Shown here one piece after another: positions 414-13,109 of a DNA stretch of 35,741 bases. Positions within the stretch are counted from its first letter, which is position 1; each line of letters begins with the position of its first letter. The notes beneath the pieces are model-generated. The model saw nothing but the letters and a program-made list of their open reading frames with translations. It did not search any database and was not told the DNA's origin. Position numbers and translations under genes: made by a program. This DNA is from an uncultured Streptococcus sp. GTDB taxonomy: Bacteria > Bacillota > Bacilli > Lactobacillales > Streptococcaceae. Location of the stretch: the NCBI GenBank assembly GCA_945864085.1, contig CAMBAD010000015.1:1-35741 (forward strand), given 5' to 3'.

Positions 414-430
414 AAAGTCTCCTTTGAAAG

Positions 431-459
431 AAAAAACACACTACCTACTTAGTAGTGTG
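431..459 (-). terminator. Conditional intrinsic terminator in the ABC-F leader
   Basis: Read on the minus strand, CACACTAC and GTAGTGTG form a perfect 8-bp stem (437-444 with 452-459) around a 7-base loop, followed by six U residues (436-431). It lies only 17 bases before the ABC-F start codon at 413 and downstream of that gene's promoter. It therefore terminates inside the gene's own leader and must be bypassed for expression. Confidence 0.8.
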
Positions 460-553
460 CTATGCCTGCTCAAAAAGACCCTATTCAGAGAATAGAAGGC
501 GCAAAAAATGGACACAAGAAAACTACTAAATAAGTATAGGACTTAGATTGTGT

Positions 554-571
554 TTACTTGTTACTGTCCAT
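554..571 (-). CDS. Leader peptide (uORF) MDSNK of the ABC-F gene
   Basis: ATG at 571 is followed by four codons and TAA, encoding MDSNK. An AAGGAG ribosome binding site (579-574) lies upstream, but only 2 bases separate it from the ATG, which is unusually tight and may make initiation slow. The uORF forms one arm of the leader hairpin. A role as an antibiotic-sensing leader peptide is inferred from its position; the peptide does not match a leader I know. Confidence 0.5.
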   Translation of the reverse strand: MDSNK

Positions 572-602
572 TTCTCCTTACCTCGCAATGCTATTTTTAC
601 TC

Positions 603-631
603 AGTATACCATACCTAGCCCTGCCTGTCAA
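603..631 (-). promoter_or_regulatory. Strong sigma-A promoter of the ABC-F transcript
   Basis: On the minus strand a perfect -35 TTGACA (631-626) is separated by exactly 17 bases from TATACT (608-603). The -10 is preceded by TGG, making it an extended -10. The predicted start is near 597. A near-consensus promoter in front of a terminator fits a gene transcribed constitutively and controlled by attenuation. Confidence 0.85.
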
Positions 632-1946: not shown

Positions 1947-2687
1947 TTACACGTTCAAAACTTTATCTAGGAAGTCCTTCAAACGTGGGTGTTGTGGGTT
2001 GTCGAAGATTTGCTCGGGTGTGCCGTCTTCAAGGAATTCACCGCCGTCTGTAAAGATAACGCGGTTGGCAACCTTGCGGGCAAAGCCCATTTCGTGGGTT
2101 ACGATTAACATGGTCATCCCTTGTTCTGCCAAATCCTTCATAACGTTCAGTACATCGCCGACCATTTCTGGGTCAAGGGCAGAAGTGGGTTCGTCAAAGA
2201 GCATGATGTCAGGATTCATAGCAAGGGCGCGTGCGATAGCGACACGTTGTTTTTGCCCACCTGAAAGACTGTCTGGCATAGCATCTCGCTTATCTGCAAG
2301 TCCGACCTTTTCCAACAATTCCATAGCGACTTTTTCAGCTTCTGCTTTGTCCATGAGTTTGTGCTCAGTAGGAGCAAAGGTGATGTTGTCGATGACAGTC
2401 ATATGAGGAAAAAGATTGAAGTGTTGGAAGACCATGCCGACATTTGCACGAAAGGCATCCACATCTGTTTTAGGGTCTGTTAAATCATAACCATCTACGA
2501 TAACAGATCCGCTAGTGATGGATTCTAATAGGTTCATGGTTCGCAGGAAGGTTGATTTACCAGAACCTGAAGGACCGATGATACAAACAACATCTCCTTC
2601 ATAGAATTTGGTAGTAATACCTTTTAAAACTTCATTGTCACCGTAGGACTTGTGCAGGTCGTGGACATTGATTTTTAATTGAGTCAT
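1947..2687 (-). CDS. Polar amino-acid ABC transporter, ATP-binding protein (GlnQ type)
   Basis: A 246-residue ATPase of the polar amino-acid uptake family (GlnQ/HisP/ArtP). Visible motifs are Walker [10 protein letters not shown] (about residues 38-46), signature LSGGQKQR (about 142-149), Walker B with [12 protein letters not shown] (about 161-172) and the switch-region histidine in IVTHEMGFA. It would energise import through the permease encoded immediately upstream. Its ATG shares its first base with the permease stop (TAATG at 2687), so translation is coupled. The gene is intact, but its partner gene is broken, so it may now be orphaned or work with another permease. Confidence 0.93.
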
Positions 2688-3745
2688 TATTTTCCTCCGT
2701 TTTCAAGTTTACGAGCCAAGCGTGTCAAGAGGGTAATCACTACCAAGTAGATAATCGCAAGAATAGCGTACATCCGGAAGGATTGGTAGTTGCGGGCGAT
2801 GATAATCTTACCTGCTTGGAAGAGCTCGACCAAACCGATTGCTGAGATGATGGTCGTATCTTTCAAAGTGATAACAAATTGGTTGATAAAGTTTGGAAGC
2901 ATAATCTTACCAGCCTGAGGTAGGATAATCTTGCGCATGGTTGTGCCATAAGAAATTCCCAAACTACGAGAGGCTTCCATTTGTCCAGCTGGAACGGCTT
3001 GGATACCACCGCGGACAATCTCAGCAATGTAGGCACCTGAATTGAGAGAGAGGGCGATAGTACCTGCCACAAAGTCATTGATAGGAGATTGTTGTCCTGT
3101 GATAGACTCAATGAGGTTCGGAATACCCCAGAAGATGAAGGCAGCAACAATCATCAATGGGATACCGCGAACCACATCTACGAAGACAGAAGCTGTAACG
3201 CGGAGTGTCTTGATTGGGCTAACTGCAAACATACCAAAGATAATCCCGATGACGATGGCAATGGCAAAGGAAAGTAGCGCAAGTCCGACAGTGATTCCAA
3301 GACCTGAAAGCAGCTGACCGTAGTTGTTTTGAAGTAGGCCCCAGATGGTTGTTTCATCGACGGTACTTGTTTGTTCTGTATTTTCTTCTTCAGAATTGAA
3401 GTATTTATTCATGATGGCATCGTACTCTCCAGATTCAACCAGAGCAGCTAAGCCATTGTTAAACATTTCAATCAGCTCAGGATTGTTGCCTTTTTTCACT
3501 GCAAAACCGTACTCTCCGGATTTTTCACCAGGAATTGGTGTTGCAAAGTCACGACCTTGCTGGATAGCGTAGAGGAGGACGGCTTCGTCGTCCATAAGGG
3601 CATCAATCGAACCTGAGTTTAAGCTGTCATACATAGTAGAAGCTTCATCAAAGGCTTTGAGATTGTAGCCGTATTTGGCCTTGTTGCTTTCTAAGAAAGT
3701 GTAAGAAGCAGTACCGTTTTTAGCACCGACAGTCTTGCCTTTCAA
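2687..3745 (-). pseudogene. Amino-acid ABC transporter binding/permease fusion, C-terminal fragment
   Basis: This holds the second half of a periplasmic-binding-type domain (continuing from SYEDLKGKTVGAKNG, then the hinge and lobe-1 return, up to about residue 120 of this fragment) followed by a five-helix inner-membrane permease domain (about residues 140-345) with the EAA loop (EASRSLGISYGTTMRKIILPQA). The full family member is about 500 residues with a signal peptide; here the first part lies in another frame at 3784-4188. The TTG at 3745 is only the first possible start inside the domain. The open frame itself reaches back to 3823 and reads as good binding-protein sequence (SSNILLAVKNGSDIASY), so translation from 3745 is unlikely to give a functional protein. 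The downstream ATPase overlaps the stop codon. Confidence 0.8.
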
Positions 3746-3783
3746 GTCCTCGTATGAAGCGATGTCGCTTCCATTTTTTACAG

Positions 3784-4188
3784 CTAAAAGAATGTTTGAA
3801 GATACGAAGTAATCTTGTTTGACTTAGTTGTTGCAATAATGATTTTTGTATCAAAATAAGGATCTGAGAAACTGAAAACCTTTTTACGTGCTTCTGTGAT
3901 GGTCGTACCCGCCATCAGGGCGTCTGCTGAACCAGACTGGACAGCATTGACCGCGGCATCAAAACCAGGGAAACTTTGGTTCATTGTCCAGCCAGAACGT
4001 TTGGCTACTTCATTGATAATGTCAACATCTAAGCCTTTGTAGGTCTGATCTGAGTCTTTAAATTCAAATGGTGCATAGGCATTATCAAAAACAATGTCAA
4101 TCGCATCGCTTGCTTTGACATTGGTAAAGACAAGAAATGCTGGCAGAATGGTTGCCAAAAGCATGAGCATTTTTTTCTTCATTTTCAT
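3784..4188 (-). pseudogene. Amino-acid ABC transporter binding/permease fusion, N-terminal fragment
   Basis: A 134-residue fragment: a signal peptide (KMKKKMLMLLATILPAFLVF, cleavage probably near VKAS), then the first lobe of a family 3 solute-binding domain (DNAYAPFEFKD, the GFDAAVNAVQSGSADALMAG segment, and FSDPYFDTKIIIATTK). The frame ends at TAG 3786-3784 after a short tail. It has its own ribosome binding site (AAAGGAG-like) and promoter, so it is probably still transcribed. On its own it would be a half binding domain with no membrane part. The break is not a simple one-base slip: the equivalent strand of the fold is encoded once here and again, diverged, in the next frame (see findings). 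Confidence 0.8.
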
Positions 4189-7010: not shown

Positions 7011-10000
7011 ATGAAAAGAATCAGAAGTGAGAAGCAAGAACGCTTTGCTTTTCGTAAATTATCTCAAGGACTTGTCTCAGCTGCTGTAGCAAGTTTCTTT
7101 TTTGTGTCTGCCGTCGCAGGAGCAGCAGAGGTTCAGGCCCAGTCGATTCGCTACCAATATGTGACAGAGCAGGAGCTGACCGATACTGAAAAACAACGGT
7201 TGGTTCGCGATTTACCACGTCTGGCAGCAGAGACAGACGCTACCTATTATTTGGTTTACCGCCCAACCAGCCAGCCGCAGTCTGCTAGCACGACCAAGAC
7301 CTTGCCGCAAACAGGTCTTGTAGACAGTAGTCTAGCCCTGATGGCAGGTGTGACCCTACTCATTTTAGCAGTGAAAGTGGGCAAAAAAGGCAAGAAAGAA
7401 CTTGCAGGGGTTATCCTGCTGACAGCAACAGGAGCCAGCCTTTTGGCGCCAGCAGGTTCCGCAGTGACCAGTCAGCTATTGTCCAAGTATAACCATGCAG
7501 TAGAAGTCGCGACAGGACAAGCCTTGCCTGCACCGATGGACATCGAAGGTTATACCTATATTGGTTATGTGAAAGATAGCAGAGCAGTTGACACTGTATC
7601 TACTGAGACAGAGAACCCAATCAGCCAACCAGGTCAGGAATTAGTAACTGCCCTCCCAGAAAACGCCCCAAGTCTGGAACTCCCAGCAGTGGACATTCGG
7701 GAAGAAATAGTAGTAGAAAGCCAAGTCATTCCATTTGAAGAAGAGACCGTTTACTCTGCCGACCTACTTGAAGGAGTTAGCCAGATTAGCCAATCAGGTC
7801 AAGCAGGCGAACGAACTATTGAACGCAAGAATGTTTACGTCAATGGCCAACTGGTCCAGTCAACAGCCATTTCTGAGACCATAAGCAAGGCGCCTGTCAA
7901 CCAAGTAACCACAGTGGGTACAAAGGTTGTGACAGAAATTCTACCTGGTTCTGACAGTCGTCCACAACTGCCTATCACAGAAGAAGTCATCAGCCATACG
8001 GAGTCTATTCCATTTGAAACTCAGGAAGTTTATGATGAGTCCTTGCCAGATGGAACGCGTCAGGTGGTTCAACCAGGTCAAGCAGGTCAGAAAACCATTG
8101 ACAGTAAAAATACCTACATTGACGGTGTCTTGGTGAAGTCAGAGCTTGTGGGAGAGACAATCACCCTTGCACCTACTCCGCAAATTATACACATTGGTAC
8201 CAAACCAATTACACAAGTACCAGAAACAGCTCCGAGCCAAGAAGCGCTCCCAGCAGTTGTTTTGACTGAAGATACACAAGTAGTGACAGAAGCGGTTGCT
8301 TTTGAAACGCAGTTTGAATACGATGCGACTTTGGCTGAAGGTAGCCGTCAGTTGGTACAGACAGGTCAAGCAGGAGTTCGTACGATTGAAACCAAGAACT
8401 ACTATGCCGATGGTGTCTTGATTAAGTCTGAACAAGTATCCAATGCTGTCACCACAGCCCCAGTAGTTGAAGTGATTAAAATTGGTACCAAGAAAGCAGA
8501 TGTGATTACCAGCGAGACAGAGAAGCGGACCGAAGAGGTAGCCTTTGAGACCGAGTACATCGATACTGCTGATCTTTATGTAGGCGAAGAAGTTGTCAGC
8601 CGCCAAGGGGTTGCAGGCAGCAAGGAAGTTACAACGACCTATACCTTAATCAACGGTGTTCGTCAGGAAAATCCAACTCAAACAGAATCTCTTGTCCTAG
8701 CTCCAGTTTCTAAGCAAATTCTGCGTGGTACCAAGCCAGTTGAAGGAACAGAGACAGTCATCACTACTGAAGAAGTTCCTTTCCAGACCGAGTATAGCGA
8801 TGATCCAAATCTCTTAAAAGGCAAGACGCAGCTTCTCCAAGCAGGCGTAGTTGGTAGCAAGGAAATCACCACGACCTATCAGACCATTAAGGGAGTTCGC
8901 CAGGAAAATCCTACTATCACAGAAAAAATTGTACTTGAGCCAAAGGTTGAAAAAATTGCCAGAGGCACGAAAGTTGAACAGGTACCAGTCGTAACCATCA
9001 CAAATCTCCTTAAAAACGAAGATGCCAAGACTGTTACAGCGACCTATTCACTATCCAATCCAACAGGTAACTTTACCAGCGCTGTTGCCCTGCTTTACGA
9101 TGGTACAAACTTAGTTCAGCAGGTTGACATTACTGATCCGAATGGCAATCTCGAACTGACTGGTCTGGATTACTATACCGACTACACACTCAAAACCCGT
9201 GTACTCTATACCATGGACGGTCAAGCCAACCAGTCAGACCAGGAGACCATCTTAGAAAGTATCCGCGAATTTGAACTTCTGTATAAGAAGATTGAAATCA
9301 AGGATATTGACTCAGTGACCATTTACCGTCGAAAAGATGGTAGTTATGTTGGAAGCACCTCTCTAGCAGACCTGCCAGCTAGCACAGATGATCTCTTTGT
9401 CAAAGTAAGCTCTGACCGATTTAAAGAAATCTATCTGCCAGTAACCAATATTGTGGCAGATACAAAGGATGGTCGCGATGTCTATAAGGTGACCACATCG
9501 TTTGCAGAATTAGTAGAAGAAAAAGATGCAGCCTATGTAGCCAATCGTGATTTCTACATTGCTAAGATGGCAACTGATGCCAATACCTATACTTCCTTTA
9601 AAGAGTTGGTAGCGGCGATGAAAGCCAACCAAACAGGTACTTTCAAACTTGGCGCGGACCTCTACGCTGACGAAGTACCAGTTGGGGATGTAGGCTCCTA
9701 TGTTGGAAACTTTAGCGGTACTCTTATCGGTGCTAATGATGGGTACAATTTTGCCATTCACAACCTGAAAGCACCTCTGTTCCTAAACTTCTACGGTAAA
9801 GTAGAAAATCTTGACCTGAAGAATATTCAGCTCAATACCAGCATTCAACCTAAACTAGCAGCTCTTGCACACATTTCTGATAGCAATGCGCGTGTTACAG
9901 ATGTTTCTGTCGAAGGAACTATCAGAGGTAAGCAAGATGTTGCTGGATTGATTCACACAGCATACAATACTGTTTTCAAAAACGTTTCCTTCAAAGGTAG

Positions 10001-13000
10001 CATAGAATCTTATGGAACCAGTGCAACGACTGTCGGTGGTATTGTTGGACACGGTATTTTGGCAGCGGTCGTTGACGCAAAAGTTGACGCCACCATAACC
10101 CTGCCAGGAACTGAAAATCAAATTGTCGGCGGGATAGCAGGTCGTATGACGCTTCAACAAGATGTACCTAGATCAGCCACCATCCAAAATGCACACGTTC
10201 AAGGCGAAATCAAGACCAGCGAGACAGGAGCAATCATCGGAAGTGTCGCAGGAACCAACCAAAGTACCGTTCTTCCGAACTATGTTGGAAATATCAACAA
10301 TGTAGTCAATGAGATGGTAGGAGCACCGAGCGTAGTTGGCAAACCTGTCAATATGGACACTCGTATTGCCAATACCTTCTCAACAACAGCTGATACCCAT
10401 CCAAAAGTAACCCTGATTACCGCGGACCAAGCCCAAGAAAAAGTAGCTGCAATGACGACAATCACAACCAGTCTGGATGATTCTGGCTACATTAACTTCA
10501 ACGACTACTCCGTTGATTATTTGACAGTTGACAAGGCACAGGCTTCTCACAAGACAGCCTACCTCAACATGGAGAAAATTCTGCCATTCTATAACAAGGA
10601 ATTGCTGGTTTACTACGGAAATAAGATTGCAGTAGATGACAAACTCAACACCGAGCGCTTGTTGGACATTGTTCCTATGAAGGATGACCTCATCGTATCA
10701 GACATCTCTGGTGAAAAGGCAGCTATTAACAAGATTATGCTGCACTACGCAGACGGTACGATTGAGTATAAGACTGTTTCCTACAAGGAAGACTTTAAGA
10801 ACGGTCATGTGGCTGAATACGCTATTGCTGGCATGGATCTGATTTACACGCCAGAAATCTTCTTGGCTACTCGTGATAGTCTGGTTTCGGAAATTGTGTC
10901 TAGTCTGTCAAGCGTGACACTGGATTCACCAGAATTAAAGGCCTTAGTCGGATTCCCAACAACCTTTGACGCCAATCGCCAGACTGCAACCGCTAAGGAT
11001 TTCTATTTCTCAGATACGTTTGCGGAAGTGAAAGCTGACCTAGAAAATAATGTTCGCAAGTTATTGTCATCGAGTCTGAATGGCCAGGATGCCGCAACGG
11101 AAGCTTACTTCAAGGAGAGAATTACCAGCAATAAAGAGGCCTTCATGCTTGGTTTGACCTACTTGACTCGTTGGTATGCGATCAATTATGGCAGCTTTAA
11201 CACCAAGGATTTGACAATCTTTGAACCAGATTTCTTCGGCAAAGAAGCTGCGTCAGCTCTCGACACCATTCTTTCTATCGGCAATGCAGGCTATGAAGCT
11301 CTTCGTCCTTATAATAACGTGCAAACCTACGCTAATCACCTAGCGAAGCAGAATGGACAAGCTTCCGTCTTTGACCTTGTAGAAGCTTACCGTGCACGAT
11401 TCTTGCCAAATACGACGGACAATGACTGGTTTAAGCAAACAACCAAGGCCTATATTGTTGAAAGCAAGTCGCAGGTAGCAGAAGCCGCAGCCAAACAAGA
11501 GAATGCTGAAAAGCATAGCAAGTACGCCCTTGCTGTCTACGACAAGATTACCAATCCAAACTGGGCTTATCGTCAAATGCTCTTGCCACTCTTGACCCTG
11601 CCACAGGAAAATATCTTTATCATCAGTAACATGAATACCCTGGCTATCGGTTCTTACGAACACTATGTCAATGATTATTCAGATCCTGTTAAACGTGATC
11701 AGGTTCGTCAGAAGGTTGATTTGGCAGCGACCCGTCAACGAGACAACGCTGATTTCTGGTATAAGATTTTGGATGAAGAAAATCGTGATAAGCTTTTCAG
11801 AACTGTTCTGAACAACGAAGGCTTCAAAATGTATGGTCCAGATGGTCAGACCAGCTACCATAACTTGACTGCGAATGTTGATGCCATTCAGGATTATTAC
11901 GGTCCAATCAATAAGTGGTACGCAGAGGGTGCAACTAAGACAGCCTACGCGGATGGTAAGGAAACCTACTACGTAACCTATGATATGCTGGGTGATTATG
12001 GTACCACGCTGTATAGCCACGAAATGGTCCACAACCAAGATGGCTCAACCTATCTCCACGGCTATGGCCGTCGGATCGGACAGGGAATGGAAGTTTATGC
12101 AGATGGTTTGCTCCAAAACGTTTCTTCGCTTGATAAGATGATTCTTGGTTTCAACGCGGTCTTTACTGGGGATGTTGCCAACCGTGTCCACGTTGCAGAT
12201 CCAGCCTCTCGCTTCACTAACGAAGCAGATTTCAATGAATACTTCCACAACCAGTTTGATGTCCTCTACCTCTTGGACTACTTGGAAGGAATGGCTATTT
12301 TAGAAAAATCTGACGCTGTGAAGAAAGATTGGTTCCGCAAGATTGAGAACTACTACGTCCAAGCAGGTGGCGTCAATACTCATGCTGGAAACAAAGCACG
12401 TGAATTGACAGACGCAGAAGTAGCAGCCTTGCAGGATTTTGACGATTTGATTGACCAAAGTATCATTGATTACCGCCAGTATTTCGGGCTTTCTGGTGGT
12501 GCCAAGACCTTGACCAAAGAATGGACTCGCAATGGTTACCACAGTGTACCGATGTTTGCGGCAAACTACTCTGCTCTGTCAAATCCTTATGGCTCACCAG
12601 GTGATATCATGTTCCGCCGGATGGCCTTTGAATTGATTGCTGCCAAGGGCTATACAGAAGGCTTCATCCCTTATGCTTCTGGTCAGTTATCTGACTATGC
12701 TATGAGTCAAAACTCTATTATCTATGATACTTGGAACAAGAAAGATACTGGTCTTATTACCGACCAACACGTCTTGGAACAGGTCTTCAAGGGAGAATAT
12801 GCAACATGGGAAGACTTCAAGAAGGCCATGTTTGCTGAGCGTGTTGAGAAAGCAGAGGCAGGCAAACTCAAGCCATTTACCATGCAGTATGAATTAGGTG
12901 TGGCAAACTCGACCAAAGAAGTGACGGTAACGACCTATGCACAACTCCAGACTTTGATGGAAGAAGCTATGGAAGCTGATACAAATGGACGAATTTTCTA

Positions 13001-13109
13001 TTCAACCAATAATGTGAATCTCAGTCGTGTGCACGCTCTTAAGGTGAAAGTTTATCAGGCTCTGATGAATACAACAGATGACTTTAGAACATCTATTTTC
13101 AATCCATAG
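7011..13109 (+). CDS. Cell-wall zinc metalloprotease, M26 (IgA1 protease/Zmp) type with five G5 domains
   Basis: A 2032-residue surface protein. In order: a YSIRK-like signal (FAFRKLSQGLVSAAVASFFF, residues 12-31); an N-terminal LPQTG (98-102) followed by two hydrophobic segments (about 106-122 and 131-150), the inverted anchoring layout of streptococcal IgA1 protease and ZmpB; five G5 domains (about 231-306, 324-398, 420-495, 500-576, 579-655); a beta-rich spacer; a GLUG-like beta-helical M26 N-terminal region (about 880-1050); and the catalytic domain with HEMVH at 1670-1674 and the third zinc ligand Glu at 1694 in GYGRRIGQGMEVYADGL. G5 domains bind sugars or zinc and link surface proteins to the wall. 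Substrate cannot be deduced: IgA1 proteases cut the hinge of human IgA1, but related Zmp enzymes cut other host proteins. The gene stands alone between a strong promoter and a terminator. The S. suis IgA1 protease is the closest recalled relative. Confidence 0.93.
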   Translation: MKRIRSEKQERFAFRKLSQGLVSAAVASFFFVSAVAGAAEVQAQSIRYQYVTEQELTDTEKQRLVRDLPRLAAETDATYYLVYRPTSQPQSASTTKTLPQTGLVDSSLALMAGVTLLILAVKVGKKGKKELAGVILLTATGASLLAPAGSAVTSQLLSKYNHAVEVATGQALPAPMDIEGYTYIGYVKDSRAVDTVSTETENPISQPGQELVTALPENAPSLELPAVDIREEIVVESQVIPFEEETVYSADLLEGVSQISQSGQAGERTIERKNVYVNGQLVQSTAISETISKAPVNQVTTVGTKVVTEILPGSDSRPQLPITEEVISHTESIPFETQEVYDESLPDGTRQVVQPGQAGQKTIDSKNTYIDGVLVKSELVGETITLAPTPQIIHIGTKPITQVPETAPSQEALPAVVLTEDTQVVTEAVAFETQFEYDATLAEGSRQLVQTGQAGVRTIETKNYYADGVLIKSEQVSNAVTTAPVVEVIKIGTKKADVITSETEKRTEEVAFETEYIDTADLYVGEEVVSRQGVAGSKEVTTTYTLINGVRQENPTQTESLVLAPVSKQILRGTKPVEGTETVITTEEVPFQTEYSDDPNLLKGKTQLLQAGVVGSKEITTTYQTIKGVRQENPTITEKIVLEPKVEKIARGTKVEQVPVVTITNLLKNEDAKTVTATYSLSNPTGNFTSAVALLYDGTNLVQQVDITDPNGNLELTGLDYYTDYTLKTRVLYTMDGQANQSDQETILESIREFELLYKKIEIKDIDSVTIYRRKDGSYVGSTSLADLPASTDDLFVKVSSDRFKEIYLPVTNIVADTKDGRDVYKVTTSFAELVEEKDAAYVANRDFYIAKMATDANTYTSFKELVAAMKANQTGTFKLGADLYADEVPVGDVGSYVGNFSGTLIGANDGYNFAIHNLKAPLFLNFYGKVENLDLKNIQLNTSIQPKLAALAHISDSNARVTDVSVEGTIRGKQDVAGLIHTAYNTVFKNVSFKGSIESYGTSATTVGGIVGHGILAAVVDAKVDATITLPGTENQIVGGIAGRMTLQQDVPRSATIQNAHVQGEIKTSETGAIIGSVAGTNQSTVLPNYVGNINNVVNEMVGAPSVVGKPVNMDTRIANTFSTTADTHPKVTLITADQAQEKVAAMTTITTSLDDSGYINFNDYSVDYLTVDKAQASHKTAYLNMEKILPFYNKELLVYYGNKIAVDDKLNTERLLDIVPMKDDLIVSDISGEKAAINKIMLHYADGTIEYKTVSYKEDFKNGHVAEYAIAGMDLIYTPEIFLATRDSLVSEIVSSLSSVTLDSPELKALVGFPTTFDANRQTATAKDFYFSDTFAEVKADLENNVRKLLSSSLNGQDAATEAYFKERITSNKEAFMLGLTYLTRWYAINYGSFNTKDLTIFEPDFFGKEAASALDTILSIGNAGYEALRPYNNVQTYANHLAKQNGQASVFDLVEAYRARFLPNTTDNDWFKQTTKAYIVESKSQVAEAAAKQENAEKHSKYALAVYDKITNPNWAYRQMLLPLLTLPQENIFIISNMNTLAIGSYEHYVNDYSDPVKRDQVRQKVDLAATRQRDNADFWYKILDEENRDKLFRTVLNNEGFKMYGPDGQTSYHNLTANVDAIQDYYGPINKWYAEGATKTAYADGKETYYVTYDMLGDYGTTLYSHEMVHNQDGSTYLHGYGRRIGQGMEVYADGLLQNVSSLDKMILGFNAVFTGDVANRVHVADPASRFTNEADFNEYFHNQFDVLYLLDYLEGMAILEKSDAVKKDWFRKIENYYVQAGGVNTHAGNKARELTDAEVAALQDFDDLIDQSIIDYRQYFGLSGGAKTLTKEWTRNGYHSVPMFAANYSALSNPYGSPGDIMFRRMAFELIAAKGYTEGFIPYASGQLSDYAMSQNSIIYDTWNKKDTGLITDQHVLEQVFKGEYATWEDFKKAMFAERVEKAEAGKLKPFTMQYELGVANSTKEVTVTTYAQLQTLMEEAMEADTNGRIFYSTNNVNLSRVHALKVKVYQALMNTTDDFRTSIFNP

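Follow-up and report, generated by a model that had tools for sequence, protein, structure and literature searches.

A tiny-uORF leader before an ABC-F gene of Streptococcus, predicted to act as a ribosome-mediated transcription attenuator

What switches on the ABC-F gene at the end of a contig from an uncultured Streptococcus sp.? The DNA analysed here (the window; 35,741 nucleotides) is the start of contig C15 (CAMBAD010000015.1) in a 90-contig draft assembly, and the leader region in question occupies positions 414–631 of its minus strand, directly before the ABC-F gene. A preliminary description, made from the letters alone, had seen in this leader the known logic of antibiotic-inducible ABC-F genes and, if real, a new member of this class. 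We consider it very likely that the region is a ribosome-mediated transcription attenuator, in which dwelling of a ribosome on a very short upstream open reading frame (uORF) is predicted to cause read-through. The promoter, the uORF with its Shine-Dalgarno (SD) sequence, the antiterminator and terminator pairings, the genus-wide conservation and the association of this gene with the strongest leader matches can be read from the compared sequences themselves.

In the proposed mechanism, a hairpin (H1) would trap the antiterminator strand when no ribosome is present, and the terminator would form. A ribosome dwelling on the tiny uORF would open H1 and free this strand, the antiterminator would form first, and RNA polymerase could then pass the terminator into the ABC-F gene. 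Usually, the ribosome would dwell there because of a drug (a pleuromutilin, lincosamide or streptogramin A) that causes stalling at initiation or immediately afterwards, a stall that the ABC-F protein would relieve.

The features of the window agree with this scheme (Table 1). Folding of positions 414–597 (minus strand), a check proposed in the preliminary description, gave −57.1 kcal/mol compared with −37.7 ± 3.9 kcal/mol for shuffled sequences (z = −4.98), and none of 200 shuffles was as low. The antiterminator score was equalled by one of 200 dinucleotide shuffles, and shuffles of the region held a mean of 0.2 terminator-type sites. The preliminary description was right about the promoter, the MDSNK uORF (571–554) and the terminator, which it placed at 431–459 and which is a hairpin at 461–435 followed by a T-run. 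Its 10-pair antiterminator (522–531 with 447–456) extends to 14 positions, 535–522 with 456–443, counting G-U pairs. The uORF hairpin, given as 506–518 with 557–573, was correctly placed and underestimated in extent: the predicted helix of 576–566 with 503–513 is continued by 561–557 with 514–518 and by 584–580, the uORF SD, with 496–500. The 2-base spacing between SD and uORF that had seemed odd disappears once GAGGT is taken as the SD: this is the conserved motif, located 8 bases before the ATG and ahead of the nearer AAGGAG. The ABC-F gene is present behind the leader, with the correction that its frame (413–3) is cut by the contig end; the remainder is matched on another contig of the assembly (G000:C71:6202-7311), the two pieces being unjoined. 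TTATTT at 533–528, within the antiterminator strand, fits the NusG-dependent pause motif TTNTTT seen in vmlR, though motifs of this sort are frequent in T-rich DNA. Helices predicted at 480–475 with 416–421 and at 474–469 with 423–428 would cover the ABC-F SD (mean probability of being unpaired 0.16). They may add a second layer of control at translation, of the sort described for vmlR and cplR. At the gathering score, Rfam had no match in the window.

The uORF was then compared in 96 leaders, comprising the window, five database records and 90 loci (the 30 best ABC-F matches and 60 picked from the list); the five records probably come from the same genomes as five of the 90 loci. A frame of 3–7 codons stands behind GAGGT in 93 of them. 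Eleven peptide types were found in these 93 leaders: MNN (43), MKN (14), MDNNK (13), MDSNK (5), MYKKSIA (5), MDK (4), MDNKK (3), MDNNE (2), MRN (2), MYNNK (1) and MDTDK (1). The uORF has three codons in 63 leaders, five in 25, including the window, and seven in 5. For example, MDK, the uORF of S. suis records DE406T and W153, differs from MDNNK by six bases that keep the frame. GAGGT lies 8–10 nucleotides (nt) from the uORF ATG in 89 of the 93 leaders, and by reading it lies 9–10 nt from an MNN ATG in the other four (L097, L108, L109 and L117). By chance such an arrangement is rare: 78 of 8300 dinucleotide-shuffled leaders (about 0.9%) carry an ATG frame of at most 8 codons with GAGGT 6–10 nt before it. 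In 90 of the 93 leaders the 75 nt before the uORF ATG contain a promoter-like site (at least 9 of 12 matches), a count made without a shuffle control; two of the other three leaders are cut too short to judge. The distance from the start codon to the antiterminator is mostly 27–37 nt and larger in some clades. What the leaders conserve is a short frame with its start codon and SD, set at this distance from the antiterminator; the peptide itself probably matters little. The lack of peptide conservation makes it unlikely that MDSNK is a dedicated arrest peptide.

Three of the 96 leaders have no short uORF. L095 and L121 are cut by contig ends, and in L061 the 5′ part is replaced. L061 is a natural uORF-less case: it has lost the promoter, the uORF and the H1 5′ arm, and its antiterminator and terminator are still present and show compensatory changes. 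In the clade of L082–L085 and L089, only 8 nt separate the stop codon of the seven-codon uORF MYKKSIA from the antiterminator. Since a ribosome at this stop would cover the antiterminator strand, only early stalls should switch the gene on there.

A second set of 24 hand-picked genomes with ABC-F copies at 42–51% identity extends the comparison to divergent streptococci. A three-codon frame occurs in 23 of the 24 (assigned partly by eye). Seventeen of these frames start with ATG (7 MNN, 4 MKN, 2 MIN, 2 MIH, MDN and MYI), four with TTG and two with GTG.

In 85 distinct leaders the antiterminator was searched for with its register between uORF and terminator left free. It scored above 95% of the shuffles in 78 of them and above at least 198 of 200 in 69; the antiterminators of L081, L086, L093 and L094 are doubtful in this search. 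In the divergent set 16 of 23 leaders exceeded the 95% level. When terminators were re-dealt among 39 leaders and the best helix was sought anew, the observed score of 26.7 compared with a maximum of 22.5 (0/2000), and over 28 strand types the observed paired fraction of 0.845 compared with a maximum of 0.839 in re-optimised re-dealing (0/2000), relatedness being ignored in both cases. Changes on both sides were found at four antiterminator pairs among 16 in-register types. In the fixed-register comparison, whose rule misplaced the antiterminator in several types, the rows of those types stayed in the count. The pairing is kept with largely different letters in the MDK clade (TGATTGGTTGGTT with AGCTACCCAATCA), in the divergent set (CTTTATCAAG with CTTGATAAAG) and in the MRN leaders. 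The preliminary description had made its reading depend on the conservation of uORF and pairings and on covariation in homologous leaders; the uORF and the pairing are conserved, and the antiterminator has compensatory changes. L120 and L125 carry a repeat-like insert (ACTCAATGAAAATCAAAG...) in the antiterminator loop between H1 and the terminator, across which the pairing is kept; we take this insert to resemble the streptococcal BOX element.

Folding calculations support a switch operated by the ribosome. In the nascent RNA of the window, with the polymerase just past the terminator, the terminator has a probability of 0.96 and the antiterminator of 0.00 without a ribosome, compared with 0.05 and 0.93 when a ribosome footprint covers the start codon of the uORF. 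A ribosome raised the nascent antiterminator by more than 0.3 in 77 of 83 distinct leaders, and in free folds the terminator hairpin exceeded 0.5 in all 83. In five leaders the footprint was slid in 4-nt steps from −30 to +66. The window turns only at positions on the uORF, at P-site offsets from −6 to +14, and is evenly divided between the two states at +10. The turning range is −2 to +14 for L117 and L119 and −2 to +6 for L043.

Both gene and leader are widespread in the genus. Of 284 Streptococcus genomes, 246 have a member of the ABC-F family at an expectation value (E) of at most 1e-100, and the leader model R1, which uses sequence only, matches 185 of the 284 at E ≤ 1e-6 and 222 at E ≤ 0.01, the weak matches being unchecked. 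The 45 strongest leader matches were fetched (L140–L184), and the ABC-F gene follows directly in all 45. In 295 genomes of the order, a sample that includes Streptococcus, no convincing leader was found outside the genus, where the best match (E = 2.4e-5, 25 bits) was not followed up; the model may simply fail to reach farther. The msrD-mefA operon of streptococci is mobile, whereas the present gene is nearly genus-wide. Among 3419 plasmid records with a match to this ABC-F, none reached 60% identity. Upstream in the window lies an amino-acid ABC transporter gene (1947–2687), separated from the leader by two small genes. By reading, without a systematic count, the leaders of L069, L082, L190, L197, L199, L205 and L208 have the end of such a gene immediately ahead of them, which favours orthology. 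In L186 and L195, and also in L185, L187 and L191, the terminator of the leader and the ABC-F gene are separated by a short frame for a basic product of some 48 codons, resembling MKHLDQLKKQ...SHNLGNR; in L186 and L195 its distance from the ABC-F gene is about 205 nt. The leader would control a two-gene unit in these divergent species.

The window encodes no more than the N-terminal 137 residues of the ABC-F protein; a complete relative (P0001) was used for protein-level tests. PF00005 is found in two stretches of P0001, and its structure model has linker helices at 215–260 and 264–289. P0001 thus has the two ABC domains and helical linker of an antibiotic-resistance (ARE) ABC-F protein. It shares 25% of aligned residues with VmlR. 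Ranked by Z, the five structures nearest to it are resistance ABC-Fs, with EttA within 3 Z units. We regard the ABC-F as a likely ribosome-protecting protein. Where a source name is shown among the 120 best relatives, it is a generic one (ATP-binding cassette protein, ABC-F, multidrug ABC transporter ATP-binding protein and YheS), and no description of the function of this streptococcal ABC-F was found in the open-access literature. The vgaF gene of S. suis, a vgaC homologue of about 1386 bp (PMC8422772), was considered as an identity and rejected, because NCBIfam Vga(F) scores P0001 at 134.6 bits compared with a cut-off of 975. Four of the 30 best ABC-F matches (L045, L047, L054 and L059) contain an in-frame stop, and the match in L144 is split into two overlapping pieces, so the gene seems dispensable in some strains.

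Several observations weigh against the attenuator and its proposed function. The antiterminator fell short of the 95% shuffle level in 7 of 85 distinct leaders (L087, L090, L093, L094, L095, which is cut, L097 and L109) and in 7 of 23 divergent ones (L187, L188, L197, L203, L205, L207 and L208), and L204 of the divergent set has no short uORF. RNAalifold returned no consensus pair for the aligned 5′ part of the leader, perhaps because the H1 arms sit at different distances between clades; the covariation across leaders that the preliminary description had asked for was seen for the antiterminator, and H1 is predicted from folding. Of the 23 divergent leaders, 15 gain more than 0.3 in antiterminator probability with a ribosome. 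L062 turns also with the footprint at +66, and in L040, L047, L189 and L202 the nascent antiterminator forms even without a ribosome. L047 (MYNNK) has a weakened H1, its antiterminator reaching 0.94 without a ribosome and its terminator 0.99 once complete; this copy may be decaying, as its ABC-F gene is interrupted by an in-frame stop. Even when a ribosome occupies the uORF, the complete window leader favours the terminator (0.98) and the stem covering the SD, and 83 leaders folded just past the terminator gave medians of 0.09 for the antiterminator and 0.66 for the terminator. Because the terminator wins in the complete RNA, the switch must be kinetic, and the decision would fall during transcription. 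On the protein side, the classification asked for in the preliminary description confirmed an ABC-F protein with two ABC domains and left P0001 at 302.6 bits, under the cut-off of 380 of the NCBIfam ribosomal-protection family NF000355, making it a near relative of that family and not a filed member. A single-sequence search ranked YheS ahead of VmlR, and the Foldseek E-value order was VmlR2, PoxtA, Uup, Sal(B) and EttA, with VmlR 15th. Finally, peptide identity is not wholly neutral in the vmlR leader, in which MRK is less efficient than MIN (PMC9226507), and the identity of uORF(MIN) has been called crucial for vmlR induction (PMC10201436).

The leader resembles known attenuators of ABC-F genes, as the preliminary description had supposed. 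Published uORFs of three to four codons include those of vmlR (MIN), cplR (MR[I/M]), VmlR2 (MK[L/Q]) and lsaA (MAGN) (PMC10201436; PMC9226507). The vmlR leader of Bacillus subtilis likewise has a tiny uORF in a first hairpin acting as anti-antiterminator, an antiterminator that competes with the terminator, an intrinsic terminator before the ABC-F gene and an ABC-F SD that is partly sequestered, as is predicted for streptococci (PMC9226507). MIN itself occurs in two divergent streptococci (L186 and L191). MDK and MDN variants of the vmlR uORF perform at least as well as MIN, and MDN, MDK and MRK occur in Bacilli (PMC9226507). In contrast to vmlR, where the SD precedes the hairpin (PMC9226507), the streptococcal uORF SD GAGGT is predicted to be partly paired in H1, and the uORF in the window's clade has five codons rather than three. 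The cplR leader of Clostridioides difficile also combines a tiny uORF in a 5′ hairpin with a terminator near the ABC-F start, and has transcriptional and translational layers, of which the translational one is only predicted in streptococci; the cplR terminator hairpin holds the SD (PMC10201436), whereas a separate helix (469–480 with 416–428) is predicted here. Compared by uORF consensus alone, lsaA and VmlR2 also have very short uORFs before the ABC-F gene that are not conserved between families (PMC10201436). At the uORFs of are5sc (MLV) and tiaA (MVGDDDISG) in Streptomyces, lincosamides, tiamulin and pristinamycin IIA stall ribosomes at the start codon; these systems differ in their actinobacterial ARE5 proteins, the overlapping uORFs of are5sc and the nine codons of tiaA (PMC12421871). 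The streptococcal msrD gene (MYLIFM) is another ABC-F gene under ribosome-mediated transcription attenuation, in which arrest with a macrolide occurs at the stop codon and the gene forms an operon with mefA (PMC10314930), unlike the present nearly genus-wide gene with its unconserved peptide.

Features that characterise the vmlR/cplR type are thus present in the streptococcal leader: a uORF of a few codons that has an SD of its own and is placed in a 5′ hairpin (the five codons of the window exceed the published three to four), an intrinsic terminator between the uORF and the ABC-F start, and an antiterminator predicted to exclude both the terminator and the uORF hairpin. A conserved arrest peptide of the erm or msrD type was not found among the eleven peptide types of the 93 leaders, and neither was a run of codons for an amino acid made by the gene product, the codons being variable and the gene an ABC-F. 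The streptococcal leader, of which no description was found in the open-access literature (not a proof of absence), is a genus-wide addition to the known tiny-uORF ABC-F attenuators, with a five-codon form in the window's clade.

Sensing of a ribosome-targeting drug, as the preliminary description proposed, is what we infer from these similarities, and among such drugs erythromycin appears a poor candidate inducer. Macrolides and oxazolidinones have been reasoned not to stall on a three-codon uORF (PMC9226507), and erythromycin caused no inhibition at the are5sc and tiaA uORFs, where lincosamides, tiamulin and pristinamycin IIA did (PMC12421871).

How far do other explanations account for the leader? 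It could be a plain terminator of an upstream transcript with a fortuitous small frame and no regulation, since intrinsic terminators are common and such frames occur in some shuffled leaders; the genus-wide uORF, the covarying antiterminator and the promoter directly in front make this hardly credible. An attenuator for amino-acid starvation, in which an uncharged tRNA for Asn, Lys or Asp codons stalls the ribosome on the uORF, would suit the commonest uORF, MNN, with its two Asn codons (43/93). Given the MKN, MDK, MRN, MIH, MYI and MIN uORFs elsewhere, which share no amino acid beyond Met, and a gene that is not biosynthetic, we regard it as very improbable. Slightly better placed, and still improbable, is a peptide-specific drug arrest as in the ErmC or MsrD leaders, with nascent MDSNK and a bound drug arresting the ribosome. 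Peptides of 3–5 residues are short for contact with a macrolide, and peptide sequence and length (3, 5 or 7 residues) vary while the architecture stays. In support of such an arrest, streptococcal msrD attenuation works through its MYLIFM leader (PMC10314930), and uORF identity affects vmlR induction (PMC9226507; PMC10201436).

The most serious alternative, which we hold to be possible though on balance doubtful, is that the leader senses general trouble in initiation or early elongation (cold, starvation or slow recycling) rather than antibiotics in particular, and that the ABC-F is a housekeeping factor whose level goes up each time ribosomes are delayed close to a start codon. The nearly genus-wide gene family, the generic names of its relatives, the lack of a plasmid match at 60% identity and the score below the resistance-family cut-off all fit it, and the unconserved peptide gives the sensor a generic look. 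On the other hand, the same architecture before vmlR and cplR is drug-induced in experiments (PMC9226507; PMC10201436), and the five closest structures are resistance ABC-Fs, even with EttA close behind. A related idea, which we offer tentatively, is that the uORF is not a leader peptide gene at all and serves as a measuring patch one ribosome long, reporting the dwell time of any ribosome at the start codon. Its length would be set by the ribosome footprint and the hairpin, and its codons by base pairing. The ABC-F would be a genus-core rescue factor for initiation stalls, turned on by any cause of early translation stalls, be it host-made or a drug, and self-limiting by clearing ribosomes from its own patch.

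Table 1. Features of the ABC-F leader in the window (SD, Shine-Dalgarno sequence)
Positions	Strand	Feature	Basis or remark
603–631	−	Sigma-70-type promoter: TTGACA (631–626), 17-base spacer, TATACT (608–603), extended −10 TG	11/12 consensus matches
580–584	−	uORF SD GAGGT, 8 nt before ATG; paired with 496–500 in the free fold	
574–579	−	Second AAGGAG, nearer the uORF ATG	
554–571	−	Five-codon uORF ATGGACAGTAACAAGTAA, MDSNK, TAA stop	Direct reading
566–576	−	H1 5′ arm (anti-antiterminator), spans the uORF start codon	Pairs with 503–513, free fold
503–513	−	H1 3′ arm	11 pairs with 566–576, free fold
522–535	−	Antiterminator 5′ strand ACTTATTTAGTAGT, predicted to be trapped inside H1 in the free state	
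443–456	−	Antiterminator 3′ strand, overlaps terminator 5′ arm and loop	
435–461	−	Intrinsic terminator hairpin, 11-pair stem, loop of 5, then T-rich run	Probability 0.95–0.98 in free folds
416–428	−	Region with ABC-F SD AAGGAG (419–424), predicted to be partly sequestered by 469–480	
3–413	−	ABC-F gene start, N-terminal 137 codons, truncated at contig end	ABC_tran PF00005, E 3.2e-9

Elsewhere in the window, an amino-acid transporter gene at 2687–4188 (minus strand) is read in two frames, 3784–4188 and 2687–3745 (TTG start), and is possibly interrupted or affected by a sequencing error. Positions 7011–13109 (plus strand) encode a protein of 2032 residues with LPQTG near the N-terminus and HEMVH in the C-terminal part, which presumably resembles the streptococcal IgA-protease/Zmp zinc proteases.

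With this leader, a nearly genus-wide and generically named streptococcal ABC-F gains a testable function as a likely inducible ribosome-protection factor. A study of the uORF consensus in relation to resistance and inducibility has been called for (PMC10201436), and the eleven natural peptide types in 93 leaders, with more in divergent species, make this question testable within one architecture. If induction is confirmed, many streptococci, the S. suis group included, would hold a built-in, drug-switched answer to pleuromutilins, lincosamides and streptogramin A, and such an answer may escape lists of acquired resistance genes.
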